Source: Candidatus Poribacteria bacterium
GTDB taxonomy: Bacteria > Poribacteria > WGA-4E > WGA-3G
Direction of reading: 5' to 3'
DNA length: 41,072 nucleotides
NCBI GenBank assembly: GCA_022821965.1
Contig: JAJECN010000052.1
Coordinates: forward strand, 1-41,072
The translations under genes and the position numbers were made by a program. A model generated the notes under the pieces. The model saw only the letters and a program-made list of their open reading frames with translations, had not been told where the DNA came from and ran no database searches. Below are positions 28,831 to 39,162 of the stretch, in pieces (within the stretch, counting starts at the first letter, position 1; each line of letters starts with the position of its first letter).

Positions 28831-31800
28831 TCACCGCCGGATAAACATCTTTCGCGTCGCATGGAAATCCCCAGCTTTAAGTGAATAAAAATATACGCCG
28901 CTCGCGACAGGTTCGCCTGCAGCATTACGCCCATCCCAATAGGCAGTATGCGAACCCGCTTTGCGGTAGCCGAGCGTTTTAGAATAGATACGCCGTCCCT
29001 GAGCATCGTAAATATAAAGCGAAACGTTCACATTTGAGGCTAATTCATACGGAATCCACGTTTCCGGATTAAATGGATTCGGGAAATTTTGACTTAAACG
29101 GTTGACTAATGTAGATTTAACTGCACTCGGTGTCCATTCAGATGGTGTCTGTTCTTCTACAGCAAGCGAGTAGCCTTCCGGATGTACACGAAAAATACGG
29201 AGTTGATAGAGATCCACAACATAGAGGGCATTCCCTATCAACTTCAATTCAAATGGAAACCGAAGTTCACGAAAACGAGAGGTAGATGTCAACGTCCGTG
29301 TGTCAATAACTTGGATGCTATCACTATCAAGTAGATAAAGATAGTTACCCCCTACTTTTACATCAATTGGGAGCGCATCATTTTCGTATACATCCGTCAA
29401 CCTCGGATCATTCGGTTCGGTCACATCAAGTACTAAAACGCCGACAGCACTGTCCAGTAGATAAGCCCGTTCATCTGCGAACGTAACGCCCGTTGCATTT
29501 CCTTGTGTTGCGTAACTTCCAATGAGGCGCGGGATTGTCGGTTCTGTAATGTCAAAGACATGCAGTCCTCCTTCAAGGGCAGCAATATAAGCGCGTGCAG
29601 GCGAATTCGCATCAACGACGACGCGATAGGCGCTCCCCGGCATGTCACGTCTGGATACAATTCTGCTCTGATGGGGAACCCTACTATCAACGACAATTAG
29701 GGATTCTGCGCAAAGGTAAGCATATCCGGCGTTCAAGGCAATGTCCGAAACGGATGCGGCTGTCGGAATATGCGCCACAACCGTATTTAAAGCGAGATTA
29801 ACAACGAACATCCCCGTCTCGGCAGCAAGGAAACCGTGTCCATCTTGGACACGAACTTTGGTGCAGCTGACAACATCAAGCCGATTTTCAGAGACGACAC
29901 CCTTCGCAGATAATGACAGTTTTTTTGTTACAGTACCCTGATAGGGGGTCGTAAATTCGATGGTCTTCAACCCACCAGTGCCGTTTGCGATATAGACAGT
30001 CGGTTCACCTGCTACTGCCTCTACAACATCAAGCCCATAAGCCGTGCCGCCAGATGCATATCGGTGCAACCACTTTGGCGATCCGTCTTCGCTAACATCA
30101 ATTGTTTGGATACCGCCCTTTCCATCAGCGACATAAGCGAGTGTCCCTTCAAGTACCACATCAGTTGCCTTACCAAACGTAGGCTGTGTGGAAATTCGTC
30201 GTGGCTGTTGTGGGTTACGCACGTTGATAACATGGAGTCCGGTTTGTTGGTCTGTAAGATAGACGGTGTCGTCATGAAACTGAATACCTGTTGCGAGTCC
30301 CGGTGTATTTAGGCGGAAATCCTCTTCGGGGTTTTGGGCATCCGTAATATCCACAACAATGAGGTTGCCTGAAGCAACATAGGCGTGTGCCACATTCCTT
30401 GTCTTTTCAATCTCATAGGCAGCGGCTAAAATTGGGACGACGCTCCGCACAACAAAATTGCCAAATGGACTTGGATCGAGAATAAAAAGTCCGTGTCTAT
30501 CATCACTGAAGTAAACGACATCATCATGGATCGTCACATTAATCGGTCTACCAGCAGTCCGAAAAAAACGTCGAGGGCGGGGTGTTTGCACGTTCTGAAC
30601 GTCTTGTAAGTTGAAAACAAGCAGGTCGCGTTCAATGTCAAGCACATATAGTTTGTCGTCAGCAACTCGAACCCTGTGTGCATTCGTGAATCCACCGAGC
30701 GTCTTTAGAATACTCGGATTGGTCGGTACGGAAGTATCAATAATCTGCACACCGGCAGCACTGTCAGCGACGTAAGCGGTGTCGCCCTCAACAGCGACAG
30801 ATCGCGCACGCCCGGGTGTGGCGATCTCACCGATTTGGATAGGTTGTGTCGGTTCTGCCAACGTGAAGATTTCAAGTCCCCAATCACTCGCTGCATAAAG
30901 ATATGACGCATCCGTACCCCCAATTTCAACATCGGTATAATCGCTTGCGAGATGAATTTGCGTCATCGGTTCAAGTTGTGTTATAGGTGTAAGATTCGAG
31001 GGCGAGACACTCGGTTGGGTAAGATTGCCGAGGGCGTAAGTGATAGCCTCAGGCACAGTATCTGACATACGTTGGCGTGGCGCGCCTATTCCGTCTTCAA
31101 CATTATTGGCGGCAGGTACATCTGCGATATAACGGAGTGTCTGCGGGGTATCTGCCGTTACCATTAGGACAATTTCGCCAGTACGCTGGAGTCCATCTTG
31201 GCGGATAAGTCCCCTGTTTTTCGTGTCAAATGGAACGGATGTAACAGCGGGGCGTCCGTTGGTTGGCAAGTAAAGGGTTGTCGCGTAGAGGTTTCCCGAA
31301 CCGCTCCCCATCACCGATATATCCAAGGTCTCTGGCAGATTCTTGAAAACAATATAGTGTGCACTCCACTGGTCAATAGGAATATTGTTCGCCTCGCTTG
31401 GGTAGTTGAAGATGCGCGGCATGACAGCACTCACCTTTCGGTCACGCAGCTCAGAATAGCCGAGCCGCCTGTTTTGTGCTTGTGTGTTCACCCAATTCGC
31501 GAGCCCCCAATTCAGAAAGACTTCAGGAAATCGGACATTTTTCCCAGTATCCACCAAGGCAGCATCAATAGCGTGTTCACCCAGTGCATCCGTCTCTATG
31601 ATACCGCGGATAAGTTCCGGTCCGCCATACTGCTCATAGAGATAGAGCATGAGCATGAAAGTCCCGCCGTAATAGGTATCTCTTGTGTTAGCATAAGCAA
31701 GCGAAACACTGGGGTTCGCCAGATAACCATCAACGAAAATATTGTGTACGGTGCCGTAGACCGCCCATTCAACAAAACTCGCTGTGCCTTCCTCTAACCA

Positions 31801-32418
31801 GCGCTGATCGGTGGTCCCACCGTTCTGAAACCAATTGATGAGATGTGCAAATTCATGTGCGAGACTACTATAAAAAGTATGTCGAGAACGTTCTCTGAAC
31901 TGGAAAACATCCATATAAAGCATCTCGCGCCGGTTGCTATTCGGTGCTGTCGGCACCTGATCGGCGGGCGCGAAATAACCGCCATAGTCCGCTCCAGAGT
32001 TGTTCATACCGACATCGTGCATCAGCAAAGTGATGCGGTTGTCCCTGTCGAGTCCGGGTTTCCATTCGGTTCCCATCCATTTCCGAACGCTCGGATAGAT
32101 ACGTGTATCAAATTCCTTTGCCACAGCAACTGCGTCGGCATCGGTGAACAACTCTCGCACAGAATTATCGACATAGACATAGAGATGTTCACTCTTTGCG
32201 ATACAGGTGGCTGTTACCTCTGTCTCTGGAATGTGAATAAAGAGCCGTTCTACGTGTCCAATCTGAACGGGTGCAGCAGGTGCAGCGGCAACCTCTTCAG
32301 GAGGGTGTTGCCCAAGGTGTTGTTGATGTAAAAGAGGTGTACCACATAGCCACGAATCAGCGGATACAAAACCGATAGCGAGAGCAAAAATGAGATTGAT
32401 TGATATTAAAAATTTCAT
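28831..32418 (-). CDS. secreted surface protein: HEFAH metallopeptidase-like domain, LVIVD beta-propellers, FlgD-like sorting tail
   Basis: This 1195-residue protein has an N-terminal signal peptide (KFLISINLIFALAIGFVSA). A zinc-peptidase-like domain follows (about 90-340) with H188-E-F-A-H192 and a downstream E in WLEEGTASF (209-210), as in gluzincin-type HExxH...E peptidases. From about 480 to 1075 there are many short repeats of the LVIVD type (for example GLFILDPS, GLHVINVRNPQQPRRI, GLHVFDITEPTIPRLI), expected to form beta-propellers. The tail (about 1105-1195) holds NFPNPFNPETWIPYEL, VSLYIYDAQGRRI, YWDGRNAAGEPVASGVYFY and a basic end, the FlgD-like type-IX-style sorting signal. It probably processes or binds extracellular polymers. 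Confidence 0.9.
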   Translation of the reverse strand: MKFLISINLIFALAIGFVSADSWLCGTPLLHQQHLGQHPPEEVAAAPAAPVQIGHVERLFIHIPETEVTATCIAKSEHLYVYVDNSVRELFTDADAVAVAKEFDTRIYPSVRKWMGTEWKPGLDRDNRITLLMHDVGMNNSGADYGGYFAPADQVPTAPNSNRREMLYMDVFQFRERSRHTFYSSLAHEFAHLINWFQNGGTTDQRWLEEGTASFVEWAVYGTVHNIFVDGYLANPSVSLAYANTRDTYYGGTFMLMLYLYEQYGGPELIRGIIETDALGEHAIDAALVDTGKNVRFPEVFLNWGLANWVNTQAQNRRLGYSELRDRKVSAVMPRIFNYPSEANNIPIDQWSAHYIVFKNLPETLDISVMGSGSGNLYATTLYLPTNGRPAVTSVPFDTKNRGLIRQDGLQRTGEIVLMVTADTPQTLRYIADVPAANNVEDGIGAPRQRMSDTVPEAITYALGNLTQPSVSPSNLTPITQLEPMTQIHLASDYTDVEIGGTDASYLYAASDWGLEIFTLAEPTQPIQIGEIATPGRARSVAVEGDTAYVADSAAGVQIIDTSVPTNPSILKTLGGFTNAHRVRVADDKLYVLDIERDLLVFNLQDVQNVQTPRPRRFFRTAGRPINVTIHDDVVYFSDDRHGLFILDPSPFGNFVVRSVVPILAAAYEIEKTRNVAHAYVASGNLIVVDITDAQNPEEDFRLNTPGLATGIQFHDDTVYLTDQQTGLHVINVRNPQQPRRISTQPTFGKATDVVLEGTLAYVADGKGGIQTIDVSEDGSPKWLHRYASGGTAYGLDVVEAVAGEPTVYIANGTGGLKTIEFTTPYQGTVTKKLSLSAKGVVSENRLDVVSCTKVRVQDGHGFLAAETGMFVVNLALNTVVAHIPTAASVSDIALNAGYAYLCAESLIVVDSRVPHQSRIVSRRDMPGSAYRVVVDANSPARAYIAALEGGLHVFDITEPTIPRLIGSYATQGNATGVTFADERAYLLDSAVGVLVLDVTEPNDPRLTDVYENDALPIDVKVGGNYLYLLDSDSIQVIDTRTLTSTSRFRELRFPFELKLIGNALYVVDLYQLRIFRVHPEGYSLAVEEQTPSEWTPSAVKSTLVNRLSQNFPNPFNPETWIPYELASNVNVSLYIYDAQGRRIYSKTLGYRKAGSHTAYWDGRNAAGEPVASGVYFYSLKAGDFHATRKMFIRR

Positions 32419-32630: not shown

Positions 32631-32659
32631 TTTACAGACCAAAATACCTCTGCTATACT
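32631..32659 (+). promoter_or_regulatory. sigma70 promoter for the oxidoreductase-selenoprotein pair
   Basis: TTTACA (32631-32636), a 17-base spacer and TATACT (32654-32659) match 10 of 12 consensus positions. The start is near 32666. The -10 box covers the first ATG of the open frame at 32659, which confirms that translation begins at 32695. Confidence 0.75.
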
Positions 32660-32694
32660 TGCATCATAAAAAATATCAAAAGGGAGAAATCTCA

Positions 32695-33720
32695 ATGTAC
32701 CGTGTCGGTATCATCGGATTAGGCAGTATCGCCTCCCGTTATTCAACACCAGACGATGCTTACCCCTATTGTCACACGGGCGGCATCCGTTTTTGTGAAA
32801 CGACTGAATTGGTGGCAGTTGCGGACATGTCCGCTGAACGCCAAACAGAATTCCAGCAAGTTTGGGGCCCCGCTTTTCCAGAGGATTCCATAAACTATTA
32901 CGAAACAGATACACAGATGCTCGAAAGTGAAGATTTGGACATCGTTGCTGTCTGTGTACGCGGACCGCATCATTTCACGGTGATGCAGAACGTCCTGAAG
33001 GCGGACATCAAAGCCATATTCCTTGAAAAACCAGCTGGATGCTCCCTCGAAGAGGTTGACGCGATGACAGCGAGTGCTGACGCGAAAGGCATCCCTATCG
33101 TTGTTGACTATACGCGGCATTGGGCACCGCACCTCATCCGTCTCCAATCGCTCATCAAAGACGGACTCATCGGTGAGGTGCAAACCGTCATCGGCTACTG
33201 CGGTGGCGGTGTGCTCTCTTTCGCCATCCACACAACGGATATGATCTGCCAGTTCGCTGGCTACGATCCAGTCTCGGTGACAGGATTCGTTTCTGGAGGC
33301 GGTAATGTCCCAGAACCTTACGAACCTGAACCCGCGATTGTCGGTTCAACGATTCAATTTGAAAGCGGCGTTATCGGTTTTCACGTTGGAAATCATGGTA
33401 CACGAGGTGGATTTTCCGTTGATGTTCTCGGCAGCGAAGGAAGCGTTCAGACAGGATTCTATAGGGGCGCGACTGTGCATAAAGGCGGTGAATTGATTGA
33501 TAATGCGACCCTTGACCTTCCAGAAAACGCCGGTCCGTTCAATGTTGCATATAAACAGATTACGGACTACCTCGATGGCGGTCCGCTTCCCCATTGTGGA
33601 CGGGACGATTATACGGCTGTCAACGAAATCGGTTTTGCGACTATCGAAAGCGGCATAACCGGACAGACGATCCAACTCCCGGGTCAGAACAGGCAACGAC
33701 TCATCTTCGCGAACGGTTAA
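32695..33720 (+). CDS. Gfo/Idh/MocA family oxidoreductase (canonical motifs)
   Basis: This 341-residue protein has a Rossmann motif VGIIGLGSIASR (residues 4-15), the acidic strand end VAVADM, the canonical catalytic triplet E111-K112-P113 (IFLEKPAGCSLEE) and the second-domain His in SFAIHTTDMICQF. It should oxidise or reduce a sugar or cyclitol with NAD(P). AGGGAG lies 8-10 bases before ATG 32695. The selenoprotein gene begins 12 bases after its stop. Together with a strong promoter this points to a two-gene operon, so the two products may act on the same pathway (inference). Confidence 0.92.
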   Translation: MYRVGIIGLGSIASRYSTPDDAYPYCHTGGIRFCETTELVAVADMSAERQTEFQQVWGPAFPEDSINYYETDTQMLESEDLDIVAVCVRGPHHFTVMQNVLKADIKAIFLEKPAGCSLEEVDAMTASADAKGIPIVVDYTRHWAPHLIRLQSLIKDGLIGEVQTVIGYCGGGVLSFAIHTTDMICQFAGYDPVSVTGFVSGGGNVPEPYEPEPAIVGSTIQFESGVIGFHVGNHGTRGGFSVDVLGSEGSVQTGFYRGATVHKGGELIDNATLDLPENAGPFNVAYKQITDYLDGGPLPHCGRDDYTAVNEIGFATIESGITGQTIQLPGQNRQRLIFANG

Positions 33721-33732
33721 TACGGAGTGGGC

Positions 33733-34470
33733 ATGGCATCTGTATGGAAACTTGATCGTCTGTCTCGATTCTTTATGAAGTTTTACGGCGGTCAGCGGTA
33801 TCAAACATCTCCTAACACACCGCTGCGCTTGCCCTTGAGCGAATGTAGCGTTGCACTTATTACGACCGCCGGGTTCTTTCTCGATGGGCAGAACCCTTTT
33901 GAGAAGGGAGATTGTTCGTACCGCGAGATTCCAAATTCCATTCCGACCCAAGCACTTATAAATGGGCATAAAAGTGCGGCTTACGATGAACGCGGCATCG
34001 AAATTGATGCGAACCTTGCGTTCCCACTTGATAGATTCAGGGAGTTGGAGACAGAAGGTAAAATCGGTTCACTCAACCATAGACACTTCAGCTTTATGGG
34101 GTCGATTACAAAACCGCAACGCCTCATTAGGCAAACCGCCCCTGAAGTTGCACAGATGCTTAAAGCTGATGGTGTAGATGTTGCTTTCTTAACCCCTGTG
34201 TGACCGATGTGCAATCAATCTGTAGGATTGATACAACGTGCTGTTGAAGAAGCAGGAATTTCCACGGTTTCAATTACCCTTGCTGAAGGTATGACTAAGA
34301 AGATAAAACCACCGCGCGCGTTAGCCGTGCCATATCCATTTGGACATCCGCTCGGTGAACCGAACAACCCAGAATTGCAACACGCGATCATCGCTGAGGC
34401 ACTTGCACTTTTAGCAGCCGAAACACTGCCCCCTATCCTTCGCGCTTTCGTTAGGAATGGTATGCAGTAG
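33733..34470 (+). CDS. GrdB/PrdB-like selenoprotein with in-frame UGA (U157-P-M-C160)
   Basis: This 245-residue protein is read through a UGA codon at 34201-34203 as selenocysteine. Upstream and downstream segments are in the same frame and together match the 'glycine/sarcosine/betaine/D-proline reductase selenoprotein B' family: GSLNHRHFSFMGSI, then APEVAQMLKADGVDVAFLTP, then V-U157-P-M-C160-N-Q-S-V-G-L, then VPYPFGHPLGEPNNPELQ. Family members carry U-x-x-C or C-x-x-C at this redox site. A bacterial SECIS-like hairpin follows at 34208-34235. ATG 33733 has ACGGAG 5 bases upstream; the GTG at 33727 is less likely. True Grd/Prd partners (GrdA, GrdC, PrdA) are absent, so it is a stand-alone relative of unknown chemistry, paired here with a Gfo/Idh/MocA dehydrogenase. 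A nonsense mutation is the alternative reading. Confidence 0.82.
34208..34235 (+). promoter_or_regulatory. bacterial SECIS-like stem-loop in the selenoprotein gene
   Basis: An upper stem ATCAATC (34214-34220) pairs exactly with GATTGAT (34226-34232) around the 5-base loop TGTAG. TGT (34208-34210) can pair with ACA (34233-34235) below a GCA bulge. The loop begins 17 bases after the UGA and has G at its second position followed by U, as in known bacterial SECIS elements bound by SelB. Confidence 0.7.
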
Positions 34471-34508
34471 TTTTTAGCTGTCAGTTAAAAAGTACTATAG
34501 TTTGGACA

Positions 34509-34562
34509 ACTTACAAGCGATTCAAGTCAATCTTTACTTACAAGCGATTCAAGTCAATCTTT
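34509..34562 (+). repeat. 27-base perfect tandem repeat, two copies
   Basis: The unit begins ACTTACAAGCGATTCAAGTC and ends AATCTTT. It occurs at 34509-34535 and 34536-34562 without a mismatch, which suggests a recent duplication. Confidence 0.9.
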
Positions 34563-34650
34563 AAAAGAAGGTGTCTGCTCTCACCAAAAGCACGTTGTAT
34601 TTTCAGCGAGTTTAGAAACGCAAAGAAACCCGTAGAAAAATACACCTCTT

Positions 34651-34680
34651 TAGCCCCAGCGGGGCGAAATGTCTATAGAA
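34651..34680 (+). repeat. CCCC-palindrome dispersed repeat, copy 3
   Basis: TAGCCCCAGCGGGGCGA followed by AATGTCTATAGAA. This is the same family as 13061 and 13111 but with the AGC-centre variant. Confidence 0.75.
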
Positions 34681-34704
34681 GAAACCCAGACACCCCACCC
34701 TTCT

Positions 34705-34730
34705 TAGCCCCAGCGGGGCGATATGTGTAT
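34705..34730 (+). repeat. CCCC-palindrome dispersed repeat, copy 4
   Basis: TAGCCCCAGCGGGGCGA followed by TATGTGTAT, 54 bases after copy 3 in the same orientation. Confidence 0.75.
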
Positions 34731-34837
34731 CAATGAAATCTTATATTGACGCTTGAGCGGTTCTCATTCATCTTGGTTATTACGCAAGCAATCCTAAAAA
34801 TTGTCCAAAGTTTAGTAAAAAGCAGTTTGATTTAAAA

Positions 34838-34883
34838 AAATCATCTTTTAACTGATAACTAAAGACTGATAACTGATAACCAT
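34838..34883 (+). repeat. CAGTTAT-heptamer interspersed repeat, copy 4 (right half)
   Basis: AACTGATAACTAAAGACTGA and following heptamers end in GATAACCATTAAAAGGAG. The repeat runs directly into the ribosome-binding site of the gene at 34899, as in copies 1-3. A matching left-half fragment lies at 34478-34492. Confidence 0.7.
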
Positions 34884-34898
34884 TAAAAGGAGAATTCC

Positions 34899-35960
34899 AT
34901 GGACAAGATCAGAGTCGGTATTATCGGATGTGGCGGCATCTTCAGAGGTCTCCACGCTCCCTACTACCAAGAACCGACACGCCGTGCGGACATCGTTGCA
35001 ATCGCTGACATCAACGAAACATCTGCAAACGAACAAGCAGATCAATTCGGTGCAGATGCCTATACAGACTACCGCGCACTTCTCGATAGACAGGATATAG
35101 ACGCAGTCGATGTCTGTGTCCACCCGGGTCCACACCTTGAAATCACGCGTGCCGCGACCGCTGCTGGCAAACACATTTTGATGGAGAAACCGATGTGTTG
35201 TAACGTCGCGGAAGGCGAGGAAATGATTGCAGCTGCTGAGAATGCTGGTGTCCTCCTAATGGTCGCCTACATGATGCGGTTCAGTCCCGGATATATGAAA
35301 CTAAAATCGTTGTTAGACGATGGCACGCTTGGCACGCTACAGATGGCGTATTCCAATCAGGTCGGTTGGTTCTCACCGGAACGGCATCCATGGCTCTTTG
35401 TGAAGGCAGAATCCGGCGGCATGTTGGTGGAACAAGCGATTCACGAACTCGATATCTGGTTGTGGTTATACGGGCCCGCTTCCACCGTTTATGGGTTCAC
35501 AAGCCATGTTCCGCTCGGCGGTACCTATCCGCCTCCCGAAGAAGCCGTAGAGAACAACGCCGTGCTGACCGTGCATTTCAAAAACGGCGGTGTCGGTATG
35601 ATGATTAAGAGTTGGGCATCTGAGATTCGGAACAGCGGTAACGGTCTGGTCACCAGCAAAGGTTCTGCGACGTTGATTCACAATGGACTCCGCTGGAAAA
35701 CCCACGATATGGCATCTGAGGAAGAATTCACTGCTCCTGTGCCAGATGATGGGACCTATCGCAATATGCCGGAGGAGCGGCGGCAGCAGCGATATTGGGG
35801 TGTCGCTGCGAAAGGAACAAGCATCGACCATTGGCTCCAATGCATCGCTGGTGAGGCAGAACCGACAACCCACGGACGCATCGGCAGAGACGGCATCGAG
35901 TTGGCAGAAGCAACGTATCGTTCTTCCCAGATTGGTGCACCGATTTCGTTGCCACTGTAG
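34899..35960 (+). CDS. Gfo/Idh/MocA family oxidoreductase (canonical motifs)
   Basis: This 353-residue protein has Rossmann motif VGIIGCGGIFRG (6-17), acidic strand end VAIADINE, the catalytic triplet E96-K97-P98 (ILMEKPMCCN) and second-domain QAIHELDIWLWLYG with the conserved His and Asp. It is predicted to be a cytoplasmic NAD(P)-dependent sugar or polyol dehydrogenase. AAAAGGAG lies 8 bases before the ATG, immediately after a heptamer repeat. No neighbour is close enough to define an operon. The substrate is not determinable. Confidence 0.92.
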   Translation: MDKIRVGIIGCGGIFRGLHAPYYQEPTRRADIVAIADINETSANEQADQFGADAYTDYRALLDRQDIDAVDVCVHPGPHLEITRAATAAGKHILMEKPMCCNVAEGEEMIAAAENAGVLLMVAYMMRFSPGYMKLKSLLDDGTLGTLQMAYSNQVGWFSPERHPWLFVKAESGGMLVEQAIHELDIWLWLYGPASTVYGFTSHVPLGGTYPPPEEAVENNAVLTVHFKNGGVGMMIKSWASEIRNSGNGLVTSKGSATLIHNGLRWKTHDMASEEEFTAPVPDDGTYRNMPEERRQQRYWGVAAKGTSIDHWLQCIAGEAEPTTHGRIGRDGIELAEATYRSSQIGAPISLPL

Positions 35961-36064
35961 AAAATAATCTGGCAGAAGCCCAATTCTGTTTTTGTTGTAC
36001 GGGTGCCCGTTCCTCACTACTTTTTCATACGCAGGAATGAGTTGTAATGTTGTAATGAAAAAAT

Positions 36065-36092
36065 TTGTGTTTTTTTTAGAAATTGGTATAAT
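36065..36092 (+). promoter_or_regulatory. sigma70 promoter for the gene at 36175
   Basis: TTGTGT (36065-36070), a 16-base T-rich spacer and a perfect TATAAT (36087-36092). The start is near 36099, leaving a leader of about 75 bases. Confidence 0.6.
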
Positions 36093-36174
36093 TTACTAAG
36101 TTTCTGTGTTTCTATCTTGTTCCTTGTGAATTGTCCTAAGTAAAACAAACCCTCAAAACTACTTTTGAAGGGAT

Positions 36175-36846
36175 GTGGTTAAGATTACAAGAGAAGAATT
36201 TTTAAAATACTACGATTCAGCAGTTTACTCAGCCAAGCTGCGGGTTCCAAGATCAGGTCCCAACTTAGCTGTGAGAAATACCGCCCGCATCAATGACGCT
36301 GTTTCTTATGGGCGGAATGTTTATGCTATTGCCTTAGATCTTTTAGTTGATAGGCGCGCCGCTAATGTAGTACAGCATGAAGTGTTCTGTCGCACTGTAG
36401 AGCAGACTCACAATTTTTCTGTCGCAGATGTGTGGCGTGGTAACTCGTGTTGGGAAGGGCTTCAAAACCTCACTATAGCTGCCGCAGTTGATATTTTGTG
36501 TTTACCTGAAGAAAATAACCCACTATCGCGCCCATTGATTGGGGGCGCGCAATTAATTGATGAGATAAACAGTAAATGGTGGGGGATTTTAGCACTGACC
36601 TTCCGACTCAGAGGTTTGCTTGAATTTCAGGTAGGGTGTCTCACTGTTTTAAAAAAGCCTCTCCAAGAGATAGCGGAACGCCTTTCTAAGACAGAACCTG
36701 AAATTCAATTGCTGTACCGAACAACCATCACGGAAATAAAGAACGCTATTGACCAGTGGGCGCAAACTGAGATTTCAGCAGCAAACGAACGTTTCACTGA
36801 AGTCGAGGAAATCAAAAGACACTACGATTACGGGAGGACATTATGA
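36175..36846 (+). CDS. hypothetical helical protein
   Basis: This is a 223-residue protein with no family I can name. It looks mostly alpha-helical (DAVSYGRNVYAIALDLLVDRR; GLQNLTIAAAVDILCL; TTITEIKNAIDQWAQTEISAA), with no signal peptide. R-T-V-E-Q-T-H around residue 73 has the spacing of a HEPN R-x4-6-H motif, but this is not enough for a call. The start is GTG 36175; a GAAGGG lies very close upstream, and an ATG two bases earlier is in a different, short frame, so the start is uncertain. It overlaps the next gene by 4 bases (ATGA), so the two are coupled. Confidence 0.65.
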   Translation: MVKITREEFLKYYDSAVYSAKLRVPRSGPNLAVRNTARINDAVSYGRNVYAIALDLLVDRRAANVVQHEVFCRTVEQTHNFSVADVWRGNSCWEGLQNLTIAAAVDILCLPEENNPLSRPLIGGAQLIDEINSKWWGILALTFRLRGLLEFQVGCLTVLKKPLQEIAERLSKTEPEIQLLYRTTITEIKNAIDQWAQTEISAANERFTEVEEIKRHYDYGRTL

Positions 36847-37988
36847 GGATCGGTGTCGTCTACTCTGGGGAACAGATACAACCGTGGCCATTTCGTGCCT
36901 TGTACCCTGTTCAATTGCGTGTAAACTGCATTGCAAATTCCAGTGTCATTCCCGAAAACCGTGTCCGTGTTGAAGAGTTCGCGTCATTCTTCGAGTGTGA
37001 TTTCTTTGAGAGCCCTGAAGAAATGTTCAATACAACGAAGCCGAAGTTAGATGGTGTTATCATTGTCTCAGAGGAGGCGGCAAGCGTGCCGCGTGCCCAA
37101 CTCATTGAATCAGCCCTTGCTGCAGGTATCAATGTTTTAGCTCCGGCAGCACCTGGCTCTTTAGAAGAGGGGATCCGCCTTGCTGCAGCATCTGAAAAAT
37201 ATAAACGGCTTGTCATGACAGGAACAAGGTTCATATTTGGCAGCTGTATTCAGGAAATCTTACGTATTGTAAGTAGTTCGGGGTTCGGAATTATTCAGGA
37301 CATGCGGTTCTTGCTCGGAATCGGACGCGTGCCGTATTTAAACGACTTGTTGAAGTTTGGAGACTTGCATTTCCAGATTGTCTTTGAGATCGTCCGTCGG
37401 CTCTTTGTAGAATATACGGTGCTGCCTGAAGAAGCGACCGTAATGGCTTCGAGGAATGGAGCACCGAACATCGCCTGCACTCTCAGGTTTCCGCAGGGTG
37501 CGCTTTGTACTTTCTGCCAGACTTCTAACCGTCAATGGGGAAACGACTCTTATCATAAAATTGAAATTACAGGTGGTGCCTCTTACATCTGGAGTGACCT
37601 GCAGACTTGGAAATGTTTCTCTATGGAGAACACTTTCAGGATGGGCGGCGGAGATGAGGAAATCTCGGCTAATATACAAGGCTCCTCCGGTCAACTTAAG
37701 GAGTTCTGTTTAGCTATTGAAGGCAATCGCGAACCTTATGCGGGCACGCTCCGGAGCACTTTGCCCGCGCTGTGGTTCCGAGAAAGATTACAAGACTGTA
37801 TTGAACACGGACAGACCAGTCTAAAACTGAGTGAGATTCGTGCGAACGCAGATGCTGAAATTCAACGACTGACCTCTCAGTTCGATGTTGATCCACAAAA
37901 CGGGGCGTCCCGACGTCAGAAGGCACTGCTCTTAGGTAAACGTGGTGATTTCTCCTTAGCACTTGCCGAGTACCACCAAACTTTGTGA
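36843..37988 (+). CDS. divergent Gfo/Idh/MocA-like protein with TPR-like tail
   Basis: This 381-residue protein starts as a Rossmann-like domain (MRIGVVYSGEQIQPWPFRAL), but the Gly-rich loop is not GxGxxG. The order that follows fits the family: LDGVIIVSEEAASVPRA, a helix, INVLAPAAPGSLEEGIRLAA, KRLVMTGTRFIFG, then a second domain (GDLHFQIVFEIVRRLF; ITGGASYIWSD). The EKP triplet is replaced by APA, so the catalytic Lys is missing. The last 30 residues (DPQNGASRRQKALLLGKRGD, then FSLALAEYHQTL) resemble one tetratricopeptide repeat. It is translated together with the unknown gene before it (ATGA overlap, GGGAGG upstream). It may be a non-catalytic sensor, given the regulator gene that follows (inference). 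Confidence 0.7.
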   Translation: MRIGVVYSGEQIQPWPFRALYPVQLRVNCIANSSVIPENRVRVEEFASFFECDFFESPEEMFNTTKPKLDGVIIVSEEAASVPRAQLIESALAAGINVLAPAAPGSLEEGIRLAAASEKYKRLVMTGTRFIFGSCIQEILRIVSSSGFGIIQDMRFLLGIGRVPYLNDLLKFGDLHFQIVFEIVRRLFVEYTVLPEEATVMASRNGAPNIACTLRFPQGALCTFCQTSNRQWGNDSYHKIEITGGASYIWSDLQTWKCFSMENTFRMGGGDEEISANIQGSSGQLKEFCLAIEGNREPYAGTLRSTLPALWFRERLQDCIEHGQTSLKLSEIRANADAEIQRLTSQFDVDPQNGASRRQKALLLGKRGDFSLALAEYHQTL

Positions 37989-38073
37989 ATTCGCCCACGT
38001 ACCTAACCGGCGAGCGATTTCTGTAACCAATGTTTATGAAGGTAATTTTTCATTAAAAAGCAGGGAAAACAAA

Positions 38074-39162
38074 ATGCATGGGAAAACTACGACTCAGATG
38101 CAGAACGTTACCAGGAATATTATCGGCGAATCGGCGCAGATGCAAGAGGTCTTTCGATCCGTAAACTTAGTCGCCCCTACAGAAGCAACTGTTCTCATTA
38201 CCGGTGAAACAGGCGTTGGCAAAGAGATTATCGCGCAAGCCATTCATGACAATAGTCCGCGTAAAAATGAGCCTTTTAAAGTAATCAACTGTGGGGCGTT
38301 TGCTCCAGAACTCATTCAAAGCGAACTCTTTGGACATGAAGAAGGGGCTTTTACAACCGCTATTAGGAAGCATCGCGGTATATTTGAACAGGCAAACGGT
38401 GGAACCTTGTTCTTGGATGAAGTCAGTGAGATGTCGCCTGAAGTCCAAGTGAAATTTCTGCGTGTCTTGGAACAGCAAGAATTTTCACCGGTCGGTAGCG
38501 AAGAAATAATTAAAGTGGATGTCCGAGTGGTAGCGGCAACAAACAGGAACCTTAAAACCGCGGTTAATAGAAAAAGATTTCGAGAAGATCTCTACTATCG
38601 ACTGAACCTCTTTCGTGTTCAGATTCCACCGCTCCGTAACAGGCGTTCGGATATCGCACCCTTGGCGTTTGATTTTCTCACCCAATTAAGCGAGAATTAC
38701 GATAAATTGATCATCGGTATAACCCCGGAGGCGGTTAAATATCTTCAGAGTATCAATTGGTACGGTAATGTGCGAGAACTCAGAAACGTAATAGAAACCG
38801 CACTTATCTTTGCAGAGGGCGAAGAATTAAAAAAAGAGGACATCGAAATGGCAATAAAAAACCTAAATGAAGCTGACGAACACTCAGATACTGACTCGGA
38901 AGCGTTTAGAGATTCATTCTCAAATGAAGTAGAGCCTTCACAAGAACCTAATGGAGACCCGCACATAACACCTGAAGATGTCAGGGGTAAATTATGGGAG
39001 CTCGTCCAGACCGGAACGATGTCCGAGATAACCTCTTATATTAGCCTTATGAGGTATGAGGCAGAAATTCTTCACTACTCCAAACGGGACATTGCCAAAC
39101 GTCTCCAAATATCTGTGCCGACCTTGGATAAATATCGGACATTGGCTGAGAAAAACACCTAA
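38074..39162 (+). CDS. AAA+ sigma54-activator-like protein with GAFTTA loop
   Basis: This 362-residue protein is a bacterial enhancer-binding protein of the NtrC AAA+ type, without a receiver domain. Walker A is GETGVGKE (44-51), followed by INCGAFAPELIQSELFGHEEGAF. The sigma54-contact loop is G91-A-F-T-T-A96 instead of GAFTGA. Walker B is TLFLDE (111-116), sensor I is AATNRNL, and the arginine-finger region is FREDLYYRLNLF. A linker (270-305) is acidic and disordered. The C-terminal HTH-like segment is KRDIAKRLQISVPTLDKYRT. ATG 38074 is chosen over upstream frame positions because AGGG precedes it. It lies 85 bases after the Gfo-like gene. Because GAFTGA normally contacts sigma54, the Gly-to-Thr change may weaken that activity. 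Confidence 0.88.
   Translation: MHGKTTTQMQNVTRNIIGESAQMQEVFRSVNLVAPTEATVLITGETGVGKEIIAQAIHDNSPRKNEPFKVINCGAFAPELIQSELFGHEEGAFTTAIRKHRGIFEQANGGTLFLDEVSEMSPEVQVKFLRVLEQQEFSPVGSEEIIKVDVRVVAATNRNLKTAVNRKRFREDLYYRLNLFRVQIPPLRNRRSDIAPLAFDFLTQLSENYDKLIIGITPEAVKYLQSINWYGNVRELRNVIETALIFAEGEELKKEDIEMAIKNLNEADEHSDTDSEAFRDSFSNEVEPSQEPNGDPHITPEDVRGKLWELVQTGTMSEITSYISLMRYEAEILHYSKRDIAKRLQISVPTLDKYRTLAEKNT

Follow-up and report, generated by a model that had tools for sequence, protein, structure and literature searches.

How is the gene read?

In the 41,072-nucleotide poribacterial contig analysed here (hereafter the window), two adjacent open frames are separated by one UGA, which raises the question of whether they are the remains of a broken gene or a single gene in which the UGA is translated and, if so, what the product does. 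The original prediction was that the frames join across this codon, and the positions bear it out: a single TGA (34201-34203) divides two open frames of equal phase, and reading it as selenocysteine (Sec) gives a 245-aa protein with the motif U157-P-M-C160. A mechanical ORF list instead cuts the gene at the TGA, into 33727-34203 and 34207-34470. In an AlphaFold model of the read-through chain (mean pLDDT 91.2), strands and helices lie on both sides of residue 157, and Sec157-x-x-Cys160 falls between a predicted core strand (150-154) and a helix (158-173). The genome that holds the gene comprises 5.69 Mb in 62 contigs. The features of the locus are listed in Table 1.

Table 1. Features of the selenoprotein locus, in window coordinates
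Feature	Position	Strand	Basis or remark
Gfo/Idh/MocA-family oxidoreductase, upstream; ends 12 nt before the selenoprotein start	32659-33720	+	PF01408; adjoining in most poribacterial loci
GGAG, possible Shine-Dalgarno, 5 nt before the ATG	33724-33727	+	Direct sequence reading; putative
Selenoprotein gene, predicted 245-aa stand-alone PrdB-like protein	33733-34470	+	ATG at 33733, stop TAG at 34468-34470
UGA codon decoded as selenocysteine (U157 in U-P-M-C)	34201-34203	+	TGA in 44/44 and 80/80 relatives; aligned with the clostridial PrdB Sec151 codon and the Haematobacter Cys
SECIS-like stem-loop within the coding sequence	34214-34232	+	8 bp including the U34221-G34225 wobble, GUN loop; fold energy and covariation
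Gfo/Idh/MocA-family oxidoreductase, downstream	34899-35960	+	PF01408/PF02894; next or near in most poribacterial loci

Selenocysteine machinery and the genetic code

The original prediction proposed looking for selA, selB, selC and selD, and all four were found in the genome. The profile scores were 522 bits for selA, 359 bits for selD and 349 bits for selB, which lies ~60 nt from the tRNA-Sec on one contig; the tRNA itself scores 78 bits, has the anticodon UCA and is called Sec (TCA) by ARAGORN. The selD gene (L139:2580-3530) is a selenoprotein gene in its own right, with an in-frame TGA in the motif C-A-G-U. We also considered a genetic code in which TGA is a sense codon. This was ruled out, since TGA ends 8 of the 25 long ORFs in the window and is therefore also a normal stop here rather than a generally reassigned codon.

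Conservation of the UGA codon

A search of 60 genomes, comprising the poribacterial genome and 59 relatives, gave a match in 47; wherever the motif was readable throughout, in 44 loci, the codon was TGA. A pattern scan of genome contigs was also made with peptide patterns that leave out residue 157, so that neither Sec nor Cys was favoured. Among the best 80 of its 569 confirmed relatives, a set that overlaps with the 44 loci, the codon was again TGA in every case, with no Cys form. As titled, these 80 loci belong to Poribacteria, Acidobacteriota, Latescibacterota, Desulfobacterota, Chloroflexota, actinobacteria and Planctomycetes. Scanning viral contigs with the protein gave no relative. Ka/Ks against relatives is ~0.05-0.2 upstream and downstream of the TGA alike; purifying selection is thus equal on both sides, and the low values beyond the codon indicate that the downstream part is under selection as protein.

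Single-codon interruptions are common in metagenome assemblies, and the TGA could in principle be a premature stop in a pseudogene or a miscalled TGC or TGT. The same codon in 44/44 and 80/80 loci from several phyla, a Ka/Ks of ~0.1 after the TGA and the covariation of the downstream stem described below all speak against this. Because the same error would be needed in every genome, this explanation is in effect refuted, and we give it practically no weight. Three findings were named in the original prediction as ones that would overturn it: a lack of selenocysteine machinery, close homologues with independent stops and a decayed downstream part, or reads with TGC/TGT at 34201-34203. None of these was encountered here.

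Some individual copies show irregularities of their own. In the homologue from genome G054 (L049:4923-5660), a further in-frame TGA stands at a position that is Arg in relatives (D-R to D-UGA); an error, a C-to-T change and a second recoding are all conceivable origins. The copy in G046 (L052) is split into two frames and that in G058 (L054) looks degraded; in these two genomes the gene may be decaying or misassembled.

A covarying hairpin follows the UGA

A SECIS-like hairpin with a 7-bp stem and a UGUAG loop had been proposed to follow the UGA, and the sequence matches it exactly: AUCAAUC (34214-34220), the loop UGUAG (34221-34225) and GAUUGAU (34226-34232). The closing U-G of the loop is C-G in many relatives, so that the element can also be drawn as eight base pairs with a GUN triloop, and this loop is found in 38 of the 39 distinct non-poribacterial sequences. 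When the 36 nt after each codon were folded and compared with synonymous shuffles, the mean z was -2.05 directly after the UGA and unremarkable across most of the gene. In single sequences, for example L004 and L048, the gain in folding over the synonymous shuffles is only modest, and the case for a SECIS therefore rests on the set.

Within the set, pairing in the stem 34214-34221/34225-34232 reaches 98.4% over 31 distinct sequences of the class (0 of 500 shuffles) and 92.2% over 43 more diverse sequences, which contain 42 double-change cells compared with 15.5 in shuffles. These compensatory changes go hand in hand with the choice among synonymous codons. At Gly165, the synonymous third position varies with the base that opens codon 163 (Ser U-A, Thr A-U, Ala G-C), with 31 of 36 pairs Watson-Crick and a further three wobble (permutation p 5e-5). 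Codon 161 behaves likewise: its third base depends on the first one of codon 167, Ile or Val (Fisher p 2e-5). Both tests ignore relatedness, so these p values are too small; the tracking runs in the same direction over several phyla. An Rfam scan of the region gave chance matches only, below gathering scores. Decoding of the UGA as selenocysteine is as well supported as sequence allows.

Selenocysteine UGA codons in general compete with termination. On this ground, the main task of the UGA and its hairpin might be to switch, depending on selenium, between a short and a long product that each have a function. The short product would be without the redox pair and without the strands and helices that make up the C-terminal part of the predicted fold, and there is no sign of selection on the short form itself; we regard such a switch as extremely unlikely.

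Relationship to PrdB and GrdB

The protein had been predicted to be GrdB/PrdB-like. Profile searches uphold the homology and place the protein nearer to PrdB than to GrdB, yet below the level at which it could be called a PrdB equivalog. The best profile is TIGR04483 PrdB (E 9e-49), with 166 bits against a curated cut-off of 300, whereas clostridial PrdB proteins pass it (Terrisporobacter 425 bits, Peptoclostridium 310 bits). The Pfam GRDB family PF07355 is matched above its gathering cut-off (40.5 bits against 22) and TIGR01918, the glycine/betaine/sarcosine/D-proline reductase selenoprotein B subfamily, below its own (54.6 bits against 65.45).

Like these clostridial PrdB proteins, which are ~240 aa long, the poribacterial protein is collinear over its length and has a Sec codon in the same alignment column (residue 151 in the clostridial proteins), followed by x-x-C. 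It differs from them in sequence (35-36% identity in the alignment) and in motif, which is U-P-M-C-N-Q-S here and U-G-T-C-H-R-S in clostridial PrdB. The selenoproteins of component B of glycine, sarcosine and betaine reductase (GrdB, GrdF and GrdH) are homologous in their C-terminal half and share the Sec and a following Cys, but their models span ~430 positions and the enzymes work with GrdE-type subunits, whereas the present protein is a single domain. The motif UxxCxxC is cited for GrdB (PMC13188914); the poribacterial protein has UxxCxxS. A Cys form of the family is encoded on the Haematobacter plasmid pOT1-1 (WP_035710215.1, titled 'glycine/sarcosine/betaine reductase selenoprotein B family protein'). 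It carries C-P-I-C at the homologous site, its Cys aligned with the window UGA, and likewise has no adjoining prd genes; it differs in having Cys for Sec, in its length of 308 aa and in adjoining aminotransferase and cobalamin genes. A small tree sets the two clostridial PrdB proteins apart from the clade of the window protein; its deep forks are weak or open, and the Haematobacter branch is very long. A sequence search of solved structures gave one spurious designed-repeat protein and no PrdB or GrdB structure. With Foldseek, nothing in the PDB matched at E <= 0.001, and neither GrdB nor PrdB was among the entries seen; VIA-align Z stayed below 8, a level that may reflect no more than a shared Rossmann-like arrangement.

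Related selenoproteins have been recorded before. The Sargasso Sea survey gives PrdB-type UxxC selenoproteins as the third most abundant known family, with 42 genes (PMC1088965), and the GOS survey lists 'Proline reductase PrdB' with 235 Sec and 110 Cys forms (PMC2398784). By counts, motif and Pfam assignment, the marine proteins resemble ours in the UxxC motif, the predominance of the Sec form and PrdB/GRDB homology. A listing of 2006 (PMC1794560) includes 'proline reductase' selenoproteins from Anaeromyxobacter and Geobacter. Our search of open-licence papers found neither a description of the gene or of its dehydrogenase neighbours in Poribacteria nor a function assigned to the stand-alone PrdB form. 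The protein is a new, well-supported member of the known UxxC PrdB selenoproteins, whose abundance in marine metagenomes has been on record since 2005.

The PrdA/GrdE-type partner is not detected

Clostridial PrdB goes with PrdA, which was not detected in the poribacterial genome. The profile PF09338, which covers PrdA/GrdE-type subunits, matched none of the 60 genomes, including the gene's own, which is ~95% complete; a PrdA protein query, run without a positive-control genome, likewise matched 0 of 60. As a control, PF09338 recognises the Terrisporobacter PrdA, encoded beside prdB on a plasmid, and the profile also detects a homologue in one Desulfobacterales genome. A PrdA analogue of unrelated sequence may still exist. 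The absence of the usual Grd/Prd partners, stated in the original prediction, therefore holds in these genomes; the protein is nevertheless not isolated, as it belongs to a large, multi-phylum family.

These data bear on whether the gene encodes a genuine D-proline reductase PrdB for Stickland-type proline reduction, with PrdA encoded elsewhere. The Sec at the homologous position and the 35-36% identity to clostridial PrdB would fit such an enzyme. A score of 166 bits against 300, where two clostridial PrdB proteins pass, the lack of any PF09338 or PrdA match in its own genome or the relatives, and neighbours that are not prd genes make it very improbable. That the UGA is recoded in a gene with a covarying SECIS, the machinery to decode it, homology to PrdB and no detectable PrdA/GrdE-type subunit is, by contrast, a conclusion that we hold as close to certain as genomic data of this kind can make it.

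Gene neighbourhood

The sugar-type dehydrogenase with which the gene had been said to be paired is real, with a PF01408 match, and adjoins it in most poribacterial loci. The dehydrogenase cluster was seen in 36 loci of this phylum, usually right beside the gene; in most poribacterial loci one Gfo/Idh/MocA gene lies immediately upstream and another downstream. This arrangement, together with the 12-nt gap between the upstream gene and the start, suggests that in Poribacteria the protein may take part in a sugar- or inositol-type pathway with the flanking dehydrogenases. Such a role would add to the explanation preferred here and excludes nothing of it. We consider it possible but doubtful: the linkage is missing in one poribacterial group (L087-L090) and in all other phyla, the neighbours elsewhere (permease, RecX, methyltransferases, GcpE, amidase and others) are unrelated to one another, with none shared among the non-poribacterial loci, and Gfo/Idh/MocA genes recur in the window. 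As the pairing is specific to Poribacteria, it says little about the general function of the family.

Three Gfo/Idh/MocA-type proteins (starting at 32659, 34899 and, weakly, 36843) lie within 32659-39162, followed by a sigma-54 activator-like protein at 37963. Upstream, 28831-32418 encodes a protein of 1195 aa that carries LVIVD repeats and whose C-terminal sorting domain resembles the type IX secretion kind. Just 3' of the selenoprotein gene, a unit of ~26 bases (ttacaagcgattcaagtcaatcttta) occurs twice in close succession at 34500-34562. The palindrome TAGCCCCAGCGGGGCGA, at 34651-34667 and 34705-34721, has eight exact copies genome-wide compared with none for the backwards pattern and resembles a small dispersed intergenic repeat. 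In Desulfobacterales loci (e.g. L114:8852-10072), an alpha/beta hydrolase, in some cases fused to OsmC, is encoded after the related gene.

A proposed mechanism

In the D-proline reductase family, the Sec selenolate is the nucleophile and the following Cys resolves. By homology, Sec157 would be the nucleophile and Cys160 the resolving residue here. These considerations allow us to propose, as the best explanation overall and a probable one, that 33733-34470 is one Sec-decoded gene whose product works without PrdA as a reductase. SelB with Sec-tRNA(UCA) would bind the hairpin just after the UGA, and the ribosome would insert selenocysteine to give the 245-aa alpha/beta protein. The selenolate would then attack either a disulfide-type substrate or an electrophilic carbon and go on to form a selenenyl-sulfide with Cys160, to be reset by a cellular dithiol, for instance thioredoxin. 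The pyruvoyl subunit, which serves substrate activation in D-proline reductase, would not be used. We favour, with some reservation, this picture of a thiol-regenerated selenol reductase acting without PrdA.

If no pyruvoyl subunit takes part, the substrate would have to be reactive enough alone or be activated by something unrecognised. A GrdB-like system, with a GrdE-type partner, has been proposed for fluoroacetate cleavage (PMC10838667), which makes it thinkable that the activated carbon need not belong to an amino acid. There is perhaps an even chance that these proteins form a distinct, pyruvoyl-independent class of Sec reductases with an undescribed substrate, found in Poribacteria, Acidobacteriota, Desulfobacterota and others, in which Sec is hardly ever traded for Cys.

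A plain ORF caller thus splits a gene that is conserved as a selenoprotein in uncultured Poribacteria and several other phyla. The large aligned set of PrdB-like proteins without PrdA is one in which the role of these abundant environmental selenoproteins could be tested.
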